From the NCBI RefSeq assembly GCF_035593265.1, contig NZ_CP141614.1, positions 2,108,001 to 2,172,000 of the forward strand: DNA of 64,000 nucleotides, written 5' to 3'. The position numbers and the translations under genes are program-made. Shown here in pieces: positions 4,623 through 59,568 of the stretch. The first letter of the stretch is position 1; every line of letters starts with the position of its first letter. The notes beneath the pieces were generated by a model. That model was given only the letters and a program-made list of their open reading frames with translations, was not told where the DNA came from and made no database searches. This stretch comes from Limnochorda sp. LNt (lineage in GTDB: Bacteria; Bacillota; Limnochordia; Limnochordales; Geochordaceae).

Positions 4623-5420
4623 ATGGCGTCACGCTTCGCCCGCTGGCCGGCGGGGGTGCAGGCGGCCGTCTCGCTCACCTTCGACGATGCGCTGGACTCC
4701 CAGCTGGCAGTGGCGGTGCCGCTGCTGGAGGCGTACGGCGTGAGGGGCACCTTCTACGTCAACCCGGGGCCCGGCAGCCGCTTCGAGCGCGACCTCGCTC
4801 GGTGGCGGGCGGTGCACCAGCAGGGCCACGAACTGGGCAACCACACCCTGCGCCACCCCTGCAGCGGGGAGCACCCCTTCGTCGAGCCGGGCCAGGCCCT
4901 GGAGCGGTGGAGCCTGGCCGAGATCGAGGCGGACGTGCTGGCCGCCTCGGCTCGGCTGCGGGCGCTGGTGCCGGCCATCGGGCGCTTCAGCTTCGCCTAC
5001 CCGTGCGGGGAGAGCTTCGTGGGCGGGGGGCCCCGGCGGCAGTCATACGAACCGGTCATCGCCCGCCACTTCACCGTGGCCCGCGCCCTGGGCGGGGCCG
5101 GCAACGACCCGGCCACCTGCCGGCTGCATCGGCTGGAGTCGTGGGTGGTGCACGAGGTGGGGGCGCCCGAAGTGGTGGCGGCGGTGGAGCGGGCGGTGGC
5201 GGTCGGGCAGTGGGCCATCCTCTGCTTCCACGGGGTCGGGGGCGACTACCTGGCGGTGGAGCCCAGGGTGCTGCGGGGGCTGCTGCGCTGGCTGGCGGGC
5301 CTGCAGCCCCGGGTCTGGATCGACACGGTGCAGGCCGTGGGCGAGTATGTGGCGGCGGCCCGGGCTGACAGCCTGCGGGCCGGCACCGGCCAGACCTCCG
5401 GACGGTGGGCGGAGAGATGA
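4623..5420 (+). CDS. polysaccharide deacetylase (NodB homology domain)
   Basis: This 265-residue protein has the NodB-fold motifs in order: TFDDALDS at residues 19-26 with the metal-binding Asp pair, GHELGNHTLRHP at 68-79 with the H-x3-H zinc ligands, FAYPCGES, and a late LCFHGVGGD strand. Such enzymes remove N- or O-acetyl groups from chitin-like sugars, peptidoglycan or capsular polysaccharide. There is no signal peptide, so it may act in the cytoplasm or be exported by another route. GAGGAGG lies about 10 bp upstream of ATG 4623. It stands between two toxin-antitoxin regions with no obvious operon partner. Confidence 0.9.
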   Translation: MASRFARWPAGVQAAVSLTFDDALDSQLAVAVPLLEAYGVRGTFYVNPGPGSRFERDLARWRAVHQQGHELGNHTLRHPCSGEHPFVEPGQALERWSLAEIEADVLAASARLRALVPAIGRFSFAYPCGESFVGGGPRRQSYEPVIARHFTVARALGGAGNDPATCRLHRLESWVVHEVGAPEVVAAVERAVAVGQWAILCFHGVGGDYLAVEPRVLRGLLRWLAGLQPRVWIDTVQAVGEYVAAARADSLRAGTGQTSGRWAER

Positions 5421-5819
5421 GCAGCCTCAGGGAACGCGCGTGATGGCCCGCGAGTACCGGGGTCCCAGGCGAACCACGGTGAAGTGCGCGTCGAAACTGA
5501 AAGCCGTGCGGATGCCGAGCCTCTCCATGATGGCGAAGCTTACGCCGTCGGTCAGGCTAAAGCGCTGGTCCGAGAAGTGCGCAAGCACTTCGCTTGCCCG
5601 GTCGAAGTCGACCGGCGTGGGGACGATGTGCCGGACGCCCGCCGCTCGAAACGCGTCCCACCAGACGCGAGCGGCCTCGTGGCCCAGGCGTGACATGAGA
5701 AGGGTGAAGGTCTCCGCCAGGATGAGGTCCGTCGTCACGAGGTCTTCATGCGGGGCACGGCTCTGGTACCACCGCCGCGCCTCGGCGTGATGTACATCCG
5801 ACCGATCCGCGAGGGCATA
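5413..5819. repeat. direct repeat, left copy (VapC segment)
   Basis: This 407-bp stretch is nearly identical to 7084-7490, at an offset of 1671 bp. Similarity starts at AGAGATGAGCAGCC and ends within GAGGGCATA. The copy here carries a VapC gene without its first codons; the copy on the right is complete. The two repeats bracket the relE-type module. Confidence 0.9.
5427..5819 (-). pseudogene. VapC-type PIN toxin lacking its N-terminus
   Basis: The frame matches the intact toxin at 7098-7520 almost residue for residue from YALADRSD to the shared end SRAITRVP. The first ten residues, including the first catalytic Asp of the PIN fold (VLVDTGAC in the intact copy), are replaced by unrelated sequence, and no antitoxin gene precedes it. 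A GTG internal start would give 103 residues without the active site. It is very likely a dead duplicate. Confidence 0.85.
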
Positions 5820-6917: not shown

Positions 6918-7083
6918 GCGGAATCCCCGCGTTCGTCGCGAGGGTGCGTGGGCGGGTGCGCCTGGAGGAGCTGACCCTGAGCGCAACGTCGAAGCGGTGC
7001 GGCGAATCCGTCCAGTGACGCGGCCGGGTCCGATGCGCGTGCGTCGGCGCCCCTGGGCCAGATAGGGGTTGAGCGAGGGGTGA

Positions 7084-7490
7084 AGAGATGAGCAGCCTCA
7101 GGGAACGCGCGTGATGGCCCGCGAGTACCGAGATCCCAGGCGAACCACGGTGAAGTGCGCGTCGAAACTGAAAGCCGTGCGGATGCCGAGCCTCTCCATG
7201 ATGGCGAAGCTCACGCAGTCGGTCAGGCTGAAGCGTTGGTCCGGGAAGTGCGCAAGCACTTGGCTTGCCCGGTCGAAGTCGACCGGGGTGGGGATGATGT
7301 ACCGGACGCCCGCCGCACGAAACGCCTCCCACCAGACGCGAGCGGCCTCGTGGCCCAGGCGTGACATGAGAAGGGTGAAGGTCTCCGCCAGGATGAGGTC
7401 CGTCGTCACGAGGTCTTCATGCGGGGCACGGCTCTGGTACCACCGCCGCGCCTCGGCGTGATGCCCATCCGACCGGTCCGCGAGGGCATA
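7084..7490. repeat. direct repeat, right copy (VapC segment)
   Basis: Right copy of the 407-bp repeat at 5413-5819, in the same orientation. It covers the 3' nine tenths of the intact vapC gene plus 14 bp beyond its stop. Confidence 0.9.
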
Positions 7491-11675: not shown

Positions 11676-11893
11676 GCACCTCGATGGCATTGTAACCGGT
11701 TATCAGACCAGCCATCAATGCCTCACCGTCGCCTGCAAGGCCTTCCCGGATGACGCCGGGGAGGCGCCTCTAGACCGAGTGGCCAGCGACCTCGGCCCCG
11801 GCACGGCGAAGCGGGTGGGTAAAGCGTCCGCTGCTCCCCACCGGGCGGGCGAGACGGCGAGAGCCATACATCCAGGGGGAGACGCGCCGGGGC

Positions 11894-12172
11894 TTAAATA
11901 CCTTTTCAAATTCCTGCGGAGACACCGACCGAGGGCTCCCTCGCCGGGCAGGCCGTATCGGTCGGCGAGCGCTCACTGCCCGGTGGGCCTGGCGGCTCCC
12001 TGCACCGGCCCGCCTGCTCCGCCGAGACGACTAGCCAGACGATGGGGCCACGTCATGGTCGCCCTGGCGTCCCATGGGGCGTCGCCATCCGTGCCAGCCT
12101 CCCATGCCGCGGCAACCGGCCCTGTCCCTCGCCGCGTCACGGGTCTCGTCCATTTCAACGATCGTTGAAATG
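11894..12172. repeat. palindrome-ended intergenic element, copy A
   Basis: The left end TTAAATACCTTTTCAAATTCC (given here as TTAAATACC...CAAATTCC) is AT-rich in a GC-rich setting, and the right end at 12151-12172 is a perfect inverted repeat around TTTCAACGATCGTTGAAA. Copy B at 13645-13955 resembles it throughout, including sequence outside the two ends (GGAGACGC before, CACGGCG after). It lies between the divergent MoaD-like and SDR genes. Confidence 0.75.
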
Positions 12173-13430: not shown

Positions 13431-13616
13431 GTGAGCGAGAGGCCCTTCGAGCCCGCCTATCTGCGTACGTGCCGAGCTGGGCGGATGGCCGCCAAGGTCC
13501 AACAGGCCCGGGCCATGCTGCGCGACTGCCGGGTCTGCCCCCGGGACTGCCGGGTCAACCGATGGGAGGGCCGCCAGCATCATGCGGCGGCCGGGTGGGA
13601 AGCACGGTGGGGGTAG
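13431..13616 (+). pseudogene. N-terminal fragment of a PflA-like radical SAM protein
   Basis: From GTG 13431 the frame reads FEPAYLRTCRAGRMAAKVQQ and then LRDCRVCPRDCRVNRWEG. This is the typical opening of the PflA-related radical SAM proteins (YLxLxxSGxLxxRVxxAxxxLxxCxxCPRxCxVxR). The similarity stops just where the SAM cluster motif should follow, and the frame ends at 13616, a few bases before element B. The gene was cut by a deletion or by arrival of the element. Confidence 0.7.
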
Positions 13617-13644
13617 TGCGTCCAGACGGGAGACGCGGCGGGGC

Positions 13645-13955
13645 TTAAATACCTTTTTAAATTCCCGTGGAGACACCAACCGAAGGCCCCCTCGCCGGTC
13701 AGGCCGTCCCGGTAGCCGATCACTCACGGCCCGGCCAGCCGGGAGGCTCGCCGCCCCGCCGCGACGGGCAGGCAGAGCCGCCTCGCTGCGCCCGGCACTC
13801 CCGCTCGTTACCCCTGCTGCGAACGGCCCGGCGGCCCAAGCGCTCCACCGCCGGACGGGGCCACGTCGCGGTCGCCCTGGCGTCCCGTGCCGCGGCAAGC
13901 GGCCGTGTCCCTCGCCGTGTCACGGGTTTCGGGCATTTCAACGACCGTTGAAATA
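13645..13955. repeat. palindrome-ended intergenic element, copy B
   Basis: The left end TTAAATACCTTTTTAAATT (13645-13663) and the right palindrome TTTCAACGACCGTTGAAA (13936-13953, one mismatch) match copy A, and internal blocks such as CCTGGCGTCCC, GCCGCGGCAA and GTCACGGGT are shared. It lies between the radical SAM fragment and the end of the gene at 13997. Confidence 0.75.
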
Positions 13956-31645: not shown

Positions 31646-32181
31646 CTTAGCGGCAGCTGCGGTAGCCAAGGAGGACGCGATCCTACGGGGCTGTCTGGAC
31701 GCGTGCACGGAGGAATATGGCTTCTACAAAGACTGGCCGCACGGGATAGCGTGCCTCTACGAACAGTCCCTGATCTACGTCATCGTGCGGGAGCTGCTGA
31801 GCTCGCGCTTTCCCTATGAGATCGGGTGGGAGCAGCCTTATCCGAGCCATCCCACGACCCGAGCCGACCTGTGCATCAAGGCAGACGACCAGCTGTTGGC
31901 CTGCATCGAGTCCAAGGTTTGGTTCAGCGAGGACGGAGCCGAGATCAAGCACGACCTCGTCAAGATGGCCTCTCTCCCGCCCGAGGTGCGGCGATTCGTC
32001 CTGCTCCTGTTCTGGAACGAGAGGCTCGAGCAAATAGACGAGAACGTCAACTGGCTAGACAACACACTCGGCCTGATACCGGTTCCCACCATCGCCCTAC
32101 AAGTTCCGCACGAAGGTGCTGCAGAAGGGCCAACCCCTTGACGCCTTCGCCGCCATCGGCCTGTTTGAGCACACGGGATAG

Positions 32182-44564: not shown

Positions 44565-47147
44565 TCAGTCGAAGGCGAGCAGTTCCGAGATCTGGGCGCC
44601 GTACCCGCCCGGCGACGTGTTGTCGGTCACGACCAGCCGGAGCAAGCGCATCCGGGTGGGCCGGGCCAGCGTTATCTCGACCAGGTTGCCTTGCGCCGGG
44701 TCGAAGGTGTAGGAGGCCGCCGGCACCACCTCCTCGTAGACGTCGCCGTCGAGGCTGCCGTGGATGGAGAAGGTCTGCGTACGCGGCTCCCACTGCATCA
44801 AGGGCGGCAGGGCCACCTGGACCACCTTGACGTCGAACGCGTCGCCCAGATCGACCGTGACCACCGCCGGCCACTCGCCCTTGCGCGCCTCGTAGTAGGT
44901 GAGCGGGTTGCCGTCGGTCATATTGCTGGCCACGTACACGTCCTCGTGCGGGCTCGCGCTCACCGGCTTGTTGAAGGTCAGGCTGGCCGGGTAGATCTCC
45001 ACCTCGTGGGCAAAGGCCCGCTCCGAGTAGGCAGTACCGCTCCGGTTGTAGAAGCGGAGCTGGAGCGCCTTGTACTCGCCCGGGTTGATCCGGATGTCGA
45101 CGACGTTGCCCGTGGCCGGCGAGAACTCGTAGTCAGCCGAGTTGAGGATCCGCGTGAACACGTTGCGCTCGCTGGTGGCCCGGATGCCGAAGAGGGCGAT
45201 GTTTTGCAGCAGGGCGACGCGAGAGGCCGGGTCGCCGTGGAGGCGGACGGTGCCCACCCGCTTCGGTTCGTCGAACCAGATGCTCAGGGCCGCGAACTCG
45301 CCAGGGGCGCCGGGCCAGTCAAGGCCGACCCAGCCCGTGGCCGGATCGCCGTCCAGCGCGGCAGAGGCCGGATGGCCGGGATCGGCAAAGGGACCTCTCC
45401 CGTCGTCCCACTCAAGGGTGCTGGTGCCGCGGGTGGCGGTCACCGTCAGCGCACCCGTCAGCCGTTCGCCCATGTAGACCTGGGGCACTGGCCGGATGGC
45501 GAAGTCGGGCACCAGGAAGCCCGCCTGGTCCCGGCGAGGCACTACCGTCACCTGCGCCGGCACCCCATCCTCGAGGTCGAGCACGTAAGGGAGGTGGAGA
45601 GCCGCCCCGGTCGAGCCTCCAACGTACTCCACGCGGATGTGGGTCGTGTGCTGGTTGGCCGAGAGGCGCAGATCCTCGGCCCTTCGCACGGGGACCTGCT
45701 TGTAGGTGATGTTGCGGAGCAGCACGTCCTCGACGCGGTTGTCAGGGCCGCTGCCCATGATGCGCGAGACGAAGTCGTCCCGGCCGTCGAGCACCACGAC
45801 GTTGTCGACGACGACACCGGAGATCCGACCCCGCTGACCGCCCGAGCGGGACCACTCCTGGCTGTACTGGATGGTGAAGTCGAGGAAGAAGTTGTCGTGG
45901 TCGGAGGCTTTGTTGTCGCCCTCCATCTGGGCGTCCTCCACCGTGATGTTGCGAAAGGCCACGTCGCGGATGTGCGCGTCGTCGGCATTGTGGATGCTCA
46001 TCACCGGCTTGTGGAAGCTATGCAGCACCGTGATGTCCCGGAACTCGATCTTCTCCATCGTCTCCCCGTAAGTCTCGTATCCCACCTCCATGCTTTGCGC
46101 CAGATCGCTCCATATCACGATGTTCTCGAAGAGGATGTCGGAGCTGGTGCCACGATCGTAGTTCTTGACCACCAGGGCGTCGTCCCAGCTGCGCACGAAG
46201 GAGTTCTTGACCACCACATTCTTGGAGGACTGCAAGGAGACGCCGTCGCCATTGGCCCGCGCCGTGATGATCTTGACATTGTCGATGGTGAGGCCGTCGA
46301 CGAAGTAGGACGTGATGGCCCACCCGGCCGGGTTGAGGATGGTGATCCCCTCGATGGTGATGTTCTTCGAGTGGCGCAATTCGATGGGAAGGGTGAACTC
46401 CGACGGACGGGTGCGGGGGTAGATGGAGCCATCCAGGATCCCCCGGCCCCGAATGGTGACGTTCTCGACCCGTTCTGCACGGATATGGCCGTACACCACG
46501 GCTCCGCCGGCGATGTAAATCGTCTGGCCGCTGCGGACCGGGATCGCATCCGCTTTGTACACCCCGGGGCCGATGTAGATGGTATCGGCGGGCAGGTTAT
46601 CGGGGTCGGGCGCATCCTGCTCCAAGGGGTTGGCGAACAGGTGCAGCGCTCGATCGGTCCGCCCGTTGTACTCCACGGTGTACTGGCCCGGGTAGTCAAG
46701 GCGGAAAGTGATGGTGTTGCCGTCGATCTCGGGGGTGATGCCGTAGGCCAGGGGCCGCACGACGGCGTCCGTCACCGCTTCATCGACGCGGACCGTGACG
46801 TTGACCGAGCCCTCGAAGTCGAAGAGGGCGACCGGGGTGGTCGTGGTGGGGGTGGTGAAGCTGAAGAGGCGTCCGTTGTTGACCAGGGTCTCGTAGACGA
46901 AGAGCTCGTGGCCCTCGACGAACACCTTCACCCGGTCGGAGCTCTCCAGCAGGGACGGCCCCTCGTAGACGACCACCTTGGTCTCGGTCACCGTCCTGGA
47001 CGGCTCCGGGGCGGGGCGGGTGGTCACCGCCGGCGCTTCCCGGCGGTCCTGCTGCCAGCGGAGGTAGGCGACACCCCCCACCACGGCAAGCAAGACGATA
47101 AGGGTTGCAAATATCTGCAGCCTGGACTTACTCTTTTTCGCCTGCAC
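44565..47147 (-). CDS. membrane-anchored beta-helix glycosidase-like enzyme (GH28/GH49-like)
   Basis: The GTG at 47147 (AGGAG upstream) gives 860 residues. An N-terminal helix (LQIFATLIVLLAVVGGVAYL) anchors it. The next region (VFVEGHELFVYETLVNNGRL) is a beta domain, followed by a right-handed beta-helix with NIVIWSD, GQTIYIAGGAVVYGHI and ANGDGVSLQSSKNVVVKNSF then VRSWDDALVVKN, whose DG and DD match the catalytic acids of GH28/49 enzymes. Two C-terminal discoidin-like regions (ASNMTDGNPLTYYEA) probably bind sugar. It is the first gene of the locus; the true substrate is unknown. Confidence 0.85.
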   Translation of the reverse strand: MQAKKSKSRLQIFATLIVLLAVVGGVAYLRWQQDRREAPAVTTRPAPEPSRTVTETKVVVYEGPSLLESSDRVKVFVEGHELFVYETLVNNGRLFSFTTPTTTTPVALFDFEGSVNVTVRVDEAVTDAVVRPLAYGITPEIDGNTITFRLDYPGQYTVEYNGRTDRALHLFANPLEQDAPDPDNLPADTIYIGPGVYKADAIPVRSGQTIYIAGGAVVYGHIRAERVENVTIRGRGILDGSIYPRTRPSEFTLPIELRHSKNITIEGITILNPAGWAITSYFVDGLTIDNVKIITARANGDGVSLQSSKNVVVKNSFVRSWDDALVVKNYDRGTSSDILFENIVIWSDLAQSMEVGYETYGETMEKIEFRDITVLHSFHKPVMSIHNADDAHIRDVAFRNITVEDAQMEGDNKASDHDNFFLDFTIQYSQEWSRSGGQRGRISGVVVDNVVVLDGRDDFVSRIMGSGPDNRVEDVLLRNITYKQVPVRRAEDLRLSANQHTTHIRVEYVGGSTGAALHLPYVLDLEDGVPAQVTVVPRRDQAGFLVPDFAIRPVPQVYMGERLTGALTVTATRGTSTLEWDDGRGPFADPGHPASAALDGDPATGWVGLDWPGAPGEFAALSIWFDEPKRVGTVRLHGDPASRVALLQNIALFGIRATSERNVFTRILNSADYEFSPATGNVVDIRINPGEYKALQLRFYNRSGTAYSERAFAHEVEIYPASLTFNKPVSASPHEDVYVASNMTDGNPLTYYEARKGEWPAVVTVDLGDAFDVKVVQVALPPLMQWEPRTQTFSIHGSLDGDVYEEVVPAASYTFDPAQGNLVEITLARPTRMRLLRLVVTDNTSPGGYGAQISELLAFD

Positions 47148-47658
47148 GCGAGAGCACTCCTGATGAGCTTGGGGTCACTGCGATCTTACGAGCCGCGCAC
47201 GCACGACGCCTATGGGCGGATCCTGCAAAATGGTGGGGATCCCCGTATGTCAGGGTGGCCCTCGGCTTCCTCTTGCCACTATGCACAAGGTTCGAGGGGG
47301 CACGGGCACGGGGTGCGCGGGGTTCGCTGCGGATACATAGCGGATTTTCAATAGGTATTTAAATTCCCCTGGTCACGCAGACAGAAGGCATACACCCCCA
47401 GACGGATACACCTCACCCCTGTTGCCACGGCGAAGCAGCCCGGCTCGGTTGAAATGGTCTCCGAAGGACGCCCGCGCTCGAGGCGCCGCTGGATCCGGCG
47501 AAGGGATACGAGGAGGCGAGCCGGGGGATCTGAGACAGGGGGCGGCGTTGCCGATTCTGTGGGCTGGAGCCCCGCCATCTTCGCCCCCGCACCCGTGATA
47601 CAATGCCCCGTGACACCATGCGTCGCGGGCGCCGGGCTGCGGGGTGGGTGCAGGTGCC
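47148..47658. other. intergenic region holding the left end of element D
   Basis: No coding frame. It holds the promoter region of the minus-strand GH gene and of the plus-strand MNT gene, and the AT-rich end at 47345-47369. A degenerate 25-bp copy of the end of the cytochrome gene (GGCGAAGGGATACGAGGAGG, compare 50310-50332) occurs at 47497-47516. Confidence 0.4.
47345..47369. repeat. AT-rich end of element D
   Basis: TTTTCAATAGGTATTTAAAT followed by TCCCC matches the left end of copies A, B, C and E, with one arm degenerate. The matching right-end palindrome lies at 48527-48548, beyond an MNT/HEPN gene pair. Confidence 0.65.
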
Positions 47659-48033
47659 GTGAAGGCCCCTGAGAAGGCGCAAGAAGTCGAGCGCTGGCTA
47701 CCGGGCGCGGTCAATCGCCTGGCGGCGCTGGGCGTGGAGCGCGTGTTCCTCTTCGGGTCGTGGGCCAGGGGCCGCGCGACGCGCCGTTCCGACCTGGACC
47801 TCCTGGTGATATGGCAGACCGACCTGCCGCCCACCGAGCGCATCGGCCTGGTGCTACAGGCGCTCAAGGACGCCCCCCTGCCGGTCGAGCCCGTCGTTTA
47901 CACGCCGGAGGAGTTCGCGGACCGGCGTGACCTGCCCTTCCTGAGGGGCGTCCTCAAGGAAGCGAGGGTCCTGTATGAGCGTGGAGAAGCAGCGACGCGA
48001 AGCGGAGAGGTGGCTCCGCCAGGCCGAAGATGA
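47659..48033 (+). CDS. MNT nucleotidyltransferase, second complete module
   Basis: From GTG 47659 (AGGTG just upstream) the 124-residue protein has the MNT core FLFGSWARGRATRRSDLDLL with Trp in the usual Ser/Arg position, and VEPVVYTPEEF, a DUF86-partner-like C-terminus. It should regulate or modify the HEPN protein encoded next. The two genes overlap by 59 bp. The sequence differs from the module at 3697, so it is a separate acquisition. Confidence 0.88.
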   Translation: MKAPEKAQEVERWLPGAVNRLAALGVERVFLFGSWARGRATRRSDLDLLVIWQTDLPPTERIGLVLQALKDAPLPVEPVVYTPEEFADRRDLPFLRGVLKEARVLYERGEAATRSGEVAPPGRR

Positions 48034-48412
48034 TCTCGATGCCGCCCGCCTGCTCTTGACGAGCGGCAAGTTCGCGCAGGCGGCCTTCTTCTCGCAGCAA
48101 GCCGGCGAGAAGGCGATGAAGGCTGTCTGGCTGGCGACGGACGCAGACCCCTGGGGCCATTCGCTGGGCCGCCTGGTCAGGGACCTGCCGGATCCGGAAG
48201 TCCGCGTGCGCTTTGCGCCGCTGCTCGACGCCGCGCTGGCGCTCGACAAGCTCTACATCCCCACCCGTTATCCCGATGCGCTCGCTGACCTCATCCCCGG
48301 CGAAGCCTACACGCAGCGCGAGGCGGAGGGCGCCCTGGCCCACTCGGCCGCCATCCTGCGAGCCGTCCGGGAGTGGATGGCGGAGCAGCCCCAAGCCAGC
48401 CCAGACGGCTGA
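47975..48412 (+). CDS. HEPN domain protein of the second MNT module
   Basis: The 145-residue helical protein has the HEPN core EAERWLRQAEDDLDAARLLL and GKFAQAAFFSQQAGEKAMKA, then GHSLGRLVRDLPD and YIPTRYPDALADL. ATG 47975 lies inside the MNT gene, so the pair is co-translated. Its HEPN type (AAFFSQQAGEKAMKA) differs from the UPF0332 type at 4080. Confidence 0.9.
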   Translation: MSVEKQRREAERWLRQAEDDLDAARLLLTSGKFAQAAFFSQQAGEKAMKAVWLATDADPWGHSLGRLVRDLPDPEVRVRFAPLLDAALALDKLYIPTRYPDALADLIPGEAYTQREAEGALAHSAAILRAVREWMAEQPQASPDG

Positions 48413-48526
48413 CTCCGGTCTGGCGGCCTTCTCGACGACAGCCGGTGCCCGTTACGTCCTAAAAGGTAGGCCGGGCCGACAGGTGTCCCGTCGAGGGCAT
48501 GGGGCAGCAGATGGCGGTCGTGGCGC

Positions 48527-48548
48527 AATTCAACGATCGTTGAAATGC
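48527..48548. repeat. right-end palindrome of element D
   Basis: The sequence around TTCAACGATCGTTGAA (48529-48544) is a perfect palindrome, identical in its core to the right end of copies A and C. It lies 114 bp after the HEPN stop. Confidence 0.7.
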
Positions 48549-48618: not shown

Positions 48619-48703
48619 TTGACACCGGTTCCCGGCGTTGGCATGATAGTTATAGGGTTTTGTTGCTCGAGGATAATACCCTTCACCGTACGGTACGTGA
48701 AGG
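48619..48703 (+). promoter_or_regulatory. promoter and leader hairpin of the propeller/cytochrome gene
   Basis: TTGACA (48619-48624) and CATGAT (48642-48647) are 17 bp apart, with TGG before the -10 (extended type). In the leader, CCTTCAC (48680-48686) can pair with GTGAAGG (48697-48703), whose last four bases are the first part of the AAGGAGG ribosome site. The loop CGTACGGTAC is itself nearly palindromic. Confidence 0.6.
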
Positions 48704-48716
48704 AGGTTCGCCAAGG

Positions 48717-50345
48717 ATGGCTGCATCCAGCCCGACGGCCCCATCCCCTACCCCCCTACCCCTCCCTCGGCGTACCCTATGGTCGATCCTCCTGGCTGCC
48801 GCCGTCGTGGCGCTGGCGGTGGGCCTGCGGCAGTGGCTGAGCCCGCTCTCAGGCATCGACCGCCTCTACGACGTGCGCTGGTACGAATCGCAAAATGCCG
48901 CCGGCCCCGAGCTCCTACCCCGGTGGGACGGCAACTGCTGGCTCTACGTGGCCGACGAGGTGAGCCAGGGCGTCACCGTGGTCGACCTGGCGACCCTCAA
49001 GCCGGTCGACTTCATCCGGCTGGAGGGGGGCGTGCCACACCACCCCCATATCACTCGGGACCAGCGGTGGGTGCTGGTCACCATTCGTTACGGCGACTGG
49101 GTGGCGGCCATCGACACCGAAGACGACCACCGCGTGCGCCGCATCGACCTGCCGATGGGGCCCGATGGGACGCCGGCCGGGCCCCTGCACATGGGGCTGA
49201 CCCGGGACGGCCACTACGCCCTCGTCACCCTCAACGGCGCCGCCCACGTGGCCGTCCTCGACGCACAAAATCCGCGCCTCTTGCGGGTAGTGGAGGTGGG
49301 CGCCCGGCCCCGGGACGTCGGCGTGACGCCCGACAGCCGCAAGGCCTACGTCAGCCTGCAGGCCGACTCCCGGGTCGCGGTCATCGACCTCGCCACCTGG
49401 GAGGTGCGCCACATCGTGCGCACCACCACCGACTACGGCGCCGGTTCGGGCAGCGGGCTGGGCATCTCGGCCGACGGCAAGTACGTCGCGGTGGCCAACA
49501 CCCTGGACGACGAGGTGATCGTCATCGACACGGGGACGGACCGGGTCATCCACCGGGTCGGCGGGGTGCCGGGTCCGGTCAACGTGGACTTCCTGGGCAA
49601 GACGTACGTGGTGGCGACGGGCAACCGGGCCGACGGGTCGGTCTCCTTCATCGACGCCGCCCAAGGCCGGCTGCTCGAGACCGTGCCGACGGGCCGGGGC
49701 GCCAACATCGCCTATTATGGCCCTGACGGCAACGTCTGGGTCAGCCACAACGGGGCCGCCTACGTCACCGTGCTGGACTTCGAGACGCTGGAGCCCATCG
49801 CCGAGATACCGGTGGTGCTCAACCCGCACTGGATCTACTTCTCGCCCGACGGCAAGACGGCCTACGCCACCAACTGGGGCGCCAACTCGGTGACGGTCAT
49901 CGACGTCGAGCGGCTGGAGCGGGTGACGCACGTCGTGGTGGGGCTCAACCCCAACGGCATGGCACTCAAGGCCAACGTGCGGACCGACGCCGTCGCCCGG
50001 AGGCAGGCGCAGGCGGCGGAGGTGAGTCCTGTCATCGCCCGGGCCAGCCGGCTGGTGCTGCCCGAGCCGCGGTCGGATGCGGAGGTGCTCTTCTTGCAGA
50101 GCTGCACCATCTGCCACGACCTGGGCCGGGTCATCCGAAACAACGCCCAGGGCGACCAGTGGTTGGACATCGTCCAGAAGATGCGGGACAACGGCGCCCC
50201 CATCGACGACGAGCAGGCCCGGATCATCGCCGAGTACCTGGCGACCGACCAGCACCGCAGCCTGACGGTGCGCACGCAGCTGCAGGTCGAACAGCCGCTC
50301 GACCCGGCGAAGGGGTACGAGGAGGCGGCGAGCCGGGGGATCTGA
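48717..50345 (+). CDS. membrane-anchored beta-propeller protein with C-terminal cytochrome c
   Basis: The 542-residue protein has an N-terminal membrane helix (LWSILLAAAVVALAVGLRQW) and then about seven YVTN-like blades (VSQGVTVVDLATLKPVDFIR, DSRVAVIDLATWEVRHIVRT, DDEVIVIDTGTDRVIHRVGG, ANSVTVIDVERLERVTHVVV). The C-terminal region has one haem-binding motif CTICH at 463-467 and a late Met (QKMRDNGAP) that may be the sixth ligand. It should sit on the outer face of the membrane and pass electrons; the oxidised substrate is unknown. AAGGAGG lies about 10 bp upstream of ATG 48717. Confidence 0.9.
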   Translation: MAASSPTAPSPTPLPLPRRTLWSILLAAAVVALAVGLRQWLSPLSGIDRLYDVRWYESQNAAGPELLPRWDGNCWLYVADEVSQGVTVVDLATLKPVDFIRLEGGVPHHPHITRDQRWVLVTIRYGDWVAAIDTEDDHRVRRIDLPMGPDGTPAGPLHMGLTRDGHYALVTLNGAAHVAVLDAQNPRLLRVVEVGARPRDVGVTPDSRKAYVSLQADSRVAVIDLATWEVRHIVRTTTDYGAGSGSGLGISADGKYVAVANTLDDEVIVIDTGTDRVIHRVGGVPGPVNVDFLGKTYVVATGNRADGSVSFIDAAQGRLLETVPTGRGANIAYYGPDGNVWVSHNGAAYVTVLDFETLEPIAEIPVVLNPHWIYFSPDGKTAYATNWGANSVTVIDVERLERVTHVVVGLNPNGMALKANVRTDAVARRQAQAAEVSPVIARASRLVLPEPRSDAEVLFLQSCTICHDLGRVIRNNAQGDQWLDIVQKMRDNGAPIDDEQARIIAEYLATDQHRSLTVRTQLQVEQPLDPAKGYEEAASRGI

Positions 50346-51258: not shown

Positions 51259-51540
51259 TTTAAATACGTATTTAAATTCCCATGGGCGCTACCGAGGACA
51301 CCCTGTGCGCTCGCGGACGAGCATCCCGGCCAGCCGCACCGAAAGCGACGGTACGCACCCCCCGAGGACGGTCTTCCCCGGCCTCCAGGTCGGCAGCGGG
51401 CGCGCGTCGTCGCGTGCCGATGCGGGCGCAGAGGGAGTCGGCGCCCGGACGAACACGCGGTCCCGTCAGCCACTAACCGGCGCCACGTCGGCGATGTGGC
51501 ACACGGGACGGGGTCGCGGCGCACTTCAACGATCGTTGAG
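51259..51540. repeat. palindrome-ended intergenic element, copy C
   Basis: The left end TTTAAATACGTATTTAAA (51259-51276) is a perfect 18-bp palindrome. The right end at 51526-51539 is TCAACGATCGTTGA, a perfect 14-bp palindrome with the same core as A and D. The spacing is 282 bp. The interior is GC-rich and unlike A and B except for short blocks near the ends (AATTCCC and CGGGACGGGG). Confidence 0.75.
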
Positions 51541-59110: not shown

Positions 59111-59568
59111 GGCGCGGACCTCACGGCACAGGCTCATATCCCATTCTTAAAGCGTTTGTCCCGTCCGACACGCATTGGCGCGCCGAGCAGGTAAGTTTCA
59201 GTCTGCAACATCTCAGGCCCACATTACCACGCCCGCCGTCTTCTTGCAAGCCCTTTCCGTCGATGAAGCCGAAGGGCTGGCGGCACGTGCGGGCGCCGGC
59301 GGGCGCTGACGGGCGCCGACGCGCGCCGACGGGGCCCCGCGAAGGTGACCGTCGGCCCTACGGGGGTCGCGATGGGTGCGGGTTCGCGAGAGTAGGGGTC
59401 TTTAAATAGGTATTTAAATTCCGCCGGGTGTCGAGACCGATACCCCCTGCACCGCCCGCGCCCCGCCGACCGCCGCTTGCGGCGCCTCGTGGGACGGTGG
59501 CGGCACGGCGCGGCGCCCGGAGGCGCCACGGACAGGGAGCGCCGGCGAGGGAGGCGCTGGCGGCGCCC
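59111..59568. other. intergenic region with the lone end of element E
   Basis: No gene. It holds the ROK promoter region (an AT-rich GGATATGAG-type stretch near 59140) and the AT-rich palindrome at 59401. The part right of it is GC-rich and without the TTTCAACG-type palindrome. Confidence 0.4.
59401..59422. repeat. AT-rich end of element family, copy E (no right end)
   Basis: TTTAAATAGGTATTTAAATT followed by CC matches the left end of A-D. No TTTCAACGATCGTTGAAA-like partner is found in the following gap before the M28 gene ends at 59569. Confidence 0.7.

Follow-up and report, generated by a model that had tools for sequence, protein, structure and literature searches.

Two unlike dyads around an MNT/HEPN gene pair in Limnochorda sp. 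LNt resemble paired intergenic sites recurring in the same genome

In the genome of Limnochorda sp. LNt a gene for a minimal nucleotidyltransferase (MNT) and a gene for a HEPN-domain protein lie between an AT-rich dyad and a palindrome, which raises the question whether the two dyads are the ends of an element carrying the gene pair as cargo, or belong to an older arrangement which the pair has entered. The window analysed comprises 64,000 nucleotides, positions 2,108,001-2,172,000 of the single 3,019,339-bp contig that forms the complete 3.02-Mb genome; positions within the window are numbered from its first letter. The AT-rich dyad with the core TTTCAATAGGTATTTAAA is referred to as LD throughout and the palindrome TTCAACGATCGTTGAA as RD. 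At the locus in question the LD occupies positions 47336-47373 on the forward strand, with the core at 47346-47363 and conserved arms of about 10 bp beyond either side, and represents one of 13 LDs in the genome. The RD, one of 11, lies on the same strand at 48526-48548, its exact palindrome covering 48529-48544 between partly conserved CAT/ATG arms.

Both dyads occur far more often than expected. The window contains four RD matches with up to three mismatches compared to 0.04 expected, and five matches to the LD pattern compared to 0.00 expected. In the whole genome the RD with up to two mismatches was found at exactly 10 places and its reversed control at none, while an eleventh RD with three mismatches adjoins the LD at 1403 kb. 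The 13 LDs derive from 16 forward matches, from which an overlapping duplicate (1403412) and the matches at 1296615 and 1347462, being inverted copies of another repeat, were left out. In approximately 270 kb read directly (the window and further stretches) all 11 stretches with at least 17 A/T per 20 bases were LDs. Thus, the AT-rich end and the palindrome are present as the earlier note had described them, and their reality and correct placement at this locus, far beyond chance, are confirmed. Searches of the window against Rfam and for tRNA genes yielded no match.

Other repeats were seen as well. The inverted copies at 1296615 and 1347462 (L066 and L067) belong to a different element with the core TTTCAATTCCTTTTCAAA, which adjoins a frame resembling an excisionase-like HTH protein as read from the DNA. 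Within the window direct repeats connect 5407-5706 with 7078-7377 (95% identity) and 2121-2420 with 31647-31946 (80%).

All 11 RDs have an LD partner, giving 11 LD-RD units in the genome. In 10 of these the dyads are spaced by 165-298 bp from centre to centre (mean 242, sd 45) without any gene inside. Three such units are located on the forward strand of the window, at 11893-12169 (260 bp), 13644-13952 (292 bp) and 51259-51540 (265 bp). The second of them is a diverged copy of the first and lies between two converging genes; just left of its LD a frame at 13437-13616, read by eye, resembles the start of a radical-SAM protein and is broken off. The unit around the MNT/HEPN pair is the sole outlier in spacing among the 11 (1,182 bp) and the sole one enclosing genes. 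The proposal that the two ends belong together is borne out by the 10 other RDs, each of which has an LD within the range given above. Their order was described as the usual one, which holds at this locus and in nine of the 11 units, where the LD lies left of the RD; however, it is neither universal nor fixed since the RD precedes the LD in the units at 1403 kb and 2187 kb. Two of the 13 LDs stand alone, at 2175 kb and at 2167 kb. The latter corresponds to positions 59401-59418 on the forward strand of the window, where RD-like matches reach at most 10 of 16 positions from 1.5 kb to the left to 2.5 kb to the right.

According to our own crude codon-usage gene caller, all units are intergenic. 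The orientations of their flanking genes are mixed and comprise divergent, tandem and, at 13.6 kb of the window, convergent pairs. The gene on the LD side has its start facing the LD in 11 of 13 cases, and the LD-side genes include those for ArsR-like, ROK and IclR regulators, an ECF-like sigma factor, a histidine kinase and catabolic proteins. Leaving the MNT/HEPN locus aside, 10 of the 16 gaps towards a facing gene start measure 164-240 bp and the others 62, 394, 420, 470, 522 and 568 bp; no common distance between unit and promoter was found among the units. Four genes have their stop towards an RD (RDs at 1403, 2004, 2121 and 2186 kb), and each of these stops is 50-60 bp away from the centre of the RD.

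The conservation of the units is concentrated in the dyads. In the LD about 38 bp are conserved, from roughly -10 to +27 relative to the core, and 12 positions among them are invariant; a weak half-site similarity reaches to about 50 bp from the LD centre. The conserved part of the RD measures 16-20 bp. While both cores are nearly invariant, the spacers are mostly unalignable, and a MAFFT alignment of ten units displayed hardly a conserved column between the dyads. Furthermore, no motif common to flanks or spacers of the units exceeded shuffled controls. Compared with shuffles, 65 pairs of spacers gave a mean z of 0.80, and six of them exceeded z = 3: the copies at 11.9 and 13.6 kb of the window (14.1), the duplication at 1318 and 1324 kb of the genome (4.4) and four weaker pairs (3.1-5.0). 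Together with the weak similarity of a few spacers in BLAST, these pairs indicate that a copied ancestor may have given rise to some of the units. The units at 1318 and 1324 kb sit inside a larger segmental duplication together with genes, in which both dyads were kept while the spacer changed by 71 bp. Besides the LD-RD unit, this duplication covers an ArsR-like gene and the beginning of a 4Fe-4S gene; its second copy contains truncated genes and is in part nearly identical to the first, as after gene conversion.

The arms outside the LD core were scored for pairing within their own unit (8.46), across units (9.37) and after shuffling (8.07). Since pairing within one unit does not rise above chance, the arms suit protein half-sites better than a hairpin. 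In folding, five of the 13 LDs were better than their shuffles (z -2.6 to -4.9), whereas the LD of the MNT/HEPN locus was not distinguished from them (z +0.09).

The MNT/HEPN pair itself is ordinary. The MNT gene (47659-48033, forward strand, with an alternative GTG start at 47644) matches Pfam PF01909/PF18765 in the open reading frame starting at 47644, and a motif scan located its GSx10DxD motif as GSWARGRATRRSDLD. It is followed by the adjoining HEPN gene (47975-48412, forward strand; PF05168, 93.2 bits), which it overlaps by 59 bp. As the earlier note had stated, these are the sole genes between the two dyads. The NCBIfam MntA model scored 32.2 bits on the MNT, below its cut-off of 60, and PADLOC listed candidate-system matches for the MNT alone. 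No sigma-70-like promoter was found directly before the MNT gene. In other pairs of this kind the MNT modifies and neutralises the HEPN toxin by NMP transfer, and by analogy the same may be expected here. The Rx4-6H RNase motif was not matched in the HEPN protein by the motif scan; PMC3710099 describes a replacement of the H by D in several PF05168 members.

Relatives of the HEPN protein (E <=1e-5) were detected in 14 of 60 genomes, including its own, and an open reading frame with the MNT motif was present near the HEPN relative at 22 of 25 loci, which were inspected over 2.3-3.4 kb. At the 24 loci other than the present one, neither an RD with fewer than five mismatches nor an LD with fewer than four was found nearby; one of these loci is in the same genome, at 2974 kb and far from any unit. 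MNT/HEPN homologues elsewhere, in this genome and in relatives, were thus found to lack such ends.

The genes flanking the locus are divergent. On the left a GH28/F5-F8C protein is encoded on the reverse strand (44565-47147), and 208 bp separate its start codon from the centre of the LD. On the right a beta-propeller protein is encoded on the forward strand (48717-50345), its start codon lying at a distance of 180 bp from the centre of the RD, which becomes 270 bp if translation starts at 48807. A promoter-like sequence (TTGACA-17-CATGAT, 48619-48647, forward strand) lies between the RD and the propeller gene, so that the insert leaves this gene joined to its promoter. The outer distances of 208 and 180 bp are ordinary and the inner one alone is stretched, by about 0.9 kb, which is why an insertion into an old unit fits better. 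Direct repeats of at least 8 bp bordering the module were not found; one 9-bp inverted match was. For the GH28 gene no match was detected in 14 other genomes searched, and the propeller gene had only partial matches, in three genomes.

Outside this genome the units were not recovered. An RD 19-mer occurred in five stretches among 84,980 GTDB species and was absent from IMG/VR; the 330 bp read beside each of the five stretches contained no LD. One unit compared with plasmids and the present locus compared with phages gave no match. With an LD profile 20 of 100 relatives, the own genome included, had matches at E <=0.1, of which those in the own genome alone were strong (25 matches, best 1.9e-10; best in another genome 8.6e-4). 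The LD pattern matched in four of 398 genomes of the phylum including the own one, and we read the matches in the three others as chance in AT-rich DNA. Likewise, the RD pattern had one match each in two others of 60 genomes, which we also read as chance, and no LD was found in the adjoining stretch examined at these two loci. With the patterns used, LD-RD units were thus found in their own genome and in no relative. LD and RD were found neither in one congener nor in two other family members searched, which argues against a conserved segregation site. A literature search did not find the RD 16-mer in papers. Two unrelated proteobacterial genomes contained TTTCAACGATCGTTGAAA-like double sites (L080 and L082), apparently near gene starts, which look like repressor operators.

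Taking these results together, the units look like paired putative protein-binding sites rather than transposon ends, and it appears somewhat probable that LD and RD are such paired sites and that the MNT/HEPN module was inserted into the spacer of an existing unit. The two different dyads would then form one paired, intergenic cis-acting unit in which each dyad is most likely bound by a protein dimer and both work together, for instance by bridging or looping. The spacer, which is not conserved, would be a mere tether. At the present locus the GH28 and propeller genes diverge from a unit that would have received the MNT/HEPN pair in its tether, adding about 0.9 kb. This explanation is favoured because all RDs have an LD, the cores are near-invariant and the spacers are free, and furthermore because the dyads outlived the duplication at 1318 and 1324 kb and the 24 other MNT/HEPN loci are without dyads. 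Counting against it are the unit at 13.6 kb, since a promoter site is unexpected between converging genes, the lack of a common promoter distance, the five LDs that fold better than shuffles and the failure to locate where the insert begins and ends, as well as the six similar spacer pairs and the two observations on copying and clustering considered below.

A mobile element was the origin proposed in the earlier note. One segment of about 370 bp was copied to give the units at 11.9 and 13.6 kb, which lie 1.75 kb apart between unrelated flanks, and the 11 units are confined to 29% of the circular chromosome (p = 2.5e-5, or p = 0.07 if they are reduced to about one unit per 100 kb, leaving four positions). 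Both observations could mean mobility. Adding the two fixed ends with a variable interior, the occurrence of both orientations, the detection in this genome alone and the weak similarity among a few spacers, LD and RD may be the ends of a small MITE-like or cassette-like element, the MNT/HEPN pair being the cargo of a longer copy; we consider this rather unlikely. The copied segment ends about 22 bp outside the LD and about 58 bp outside the RD, away from the dyads, and the LD also occurs alone, twice. No pair of fixed offsets gave target duplications above the null for k = 3-8, and a search for the Y1 transposase (PF01797) had no match in the genome while its controls were positive in five of 14. 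The idea of a longer version of a 280-bp element carrying cargo is in particular not supported, as the units share the dyads alone and no such element sequence, their spacers are mostly unrelated, the 10 other units are all without genes and target duplication was not found. Of the alternative offered with it, an old element entered by the module, the insertion into an existing unit is the better fit, whereas paired protein-binding sites are favoured over transposon ends. In an improbable, yet conceivable reading, an undescribed, host-restricted system would recognise LD and RD as its ends and mobilise the DNA between two unlike palindromes, most units being free of cargo and the present one a copy stabilised by its toxin-antitoxin cargo. 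We would grant no greater probability to an accident that placed an LD and an RD, each on its own, 1.2 kb apart around the MNT/HEPN pair without the two dyads ever having formed a unit: lone LDs do exist and the spacing is far out of range, but none of the other RDs is alone, and the order and outer distances are like those of ordinary units. Least probable seems a catabolic regulon, controlled for instance by an ArsR-, ROK- or IclR-type regulator, with LD-RD as its operators and the MNT/HEPN pair recruited into it. The regulatory and catabolic genes on the LD side and the frequent orientation of their starts towards the LD would suit it; however, the promoter spacing is not constant, one unit lies between converging genes and the MNT gene is not directly preceded by a sigma-70-like promoter.

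About a dozen times in this genome, and with the patterns used in no relative, unlike palindromes form pairs in which the cores are conserved and the spacers vary freely. Such a set points to a DNA-binding or mobilising system as yet undescribed, for which the interrupted unit represents a natural test of the importance of spacing.

Compared with known systems, the gene pair resembles MNT/HEPN (MntA-HepT, type VII) modules in its GSx10DxD-containing MNT upstream of an overlapping HEPN gene. It differs in a HEPN protein of the PF05168 type without Rx4-6H, a state of the family known from PMC3710099, and in an MNT scoring below the NCBIfam MntA cut-off. With MITEs, IS200/IS605-type and REP/RAYT elements, as these are commonly defined, the units share a short, intergenic form with palindromes near the ends. 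They differ in that their two dyads are unlike, their copies number about a dozen and their spacers are mostly unrelated, with neither a Y1 transposase nor target duplication found. The 16-bp perfect palindrome, the intergenic location and the confinement to a part of the chromosome recall paired operators and the chromosome-organising palindromes parS, matS and the Noc sites, from which the units are set apart by combining two unlike dyads, LD and RD, in a pair.
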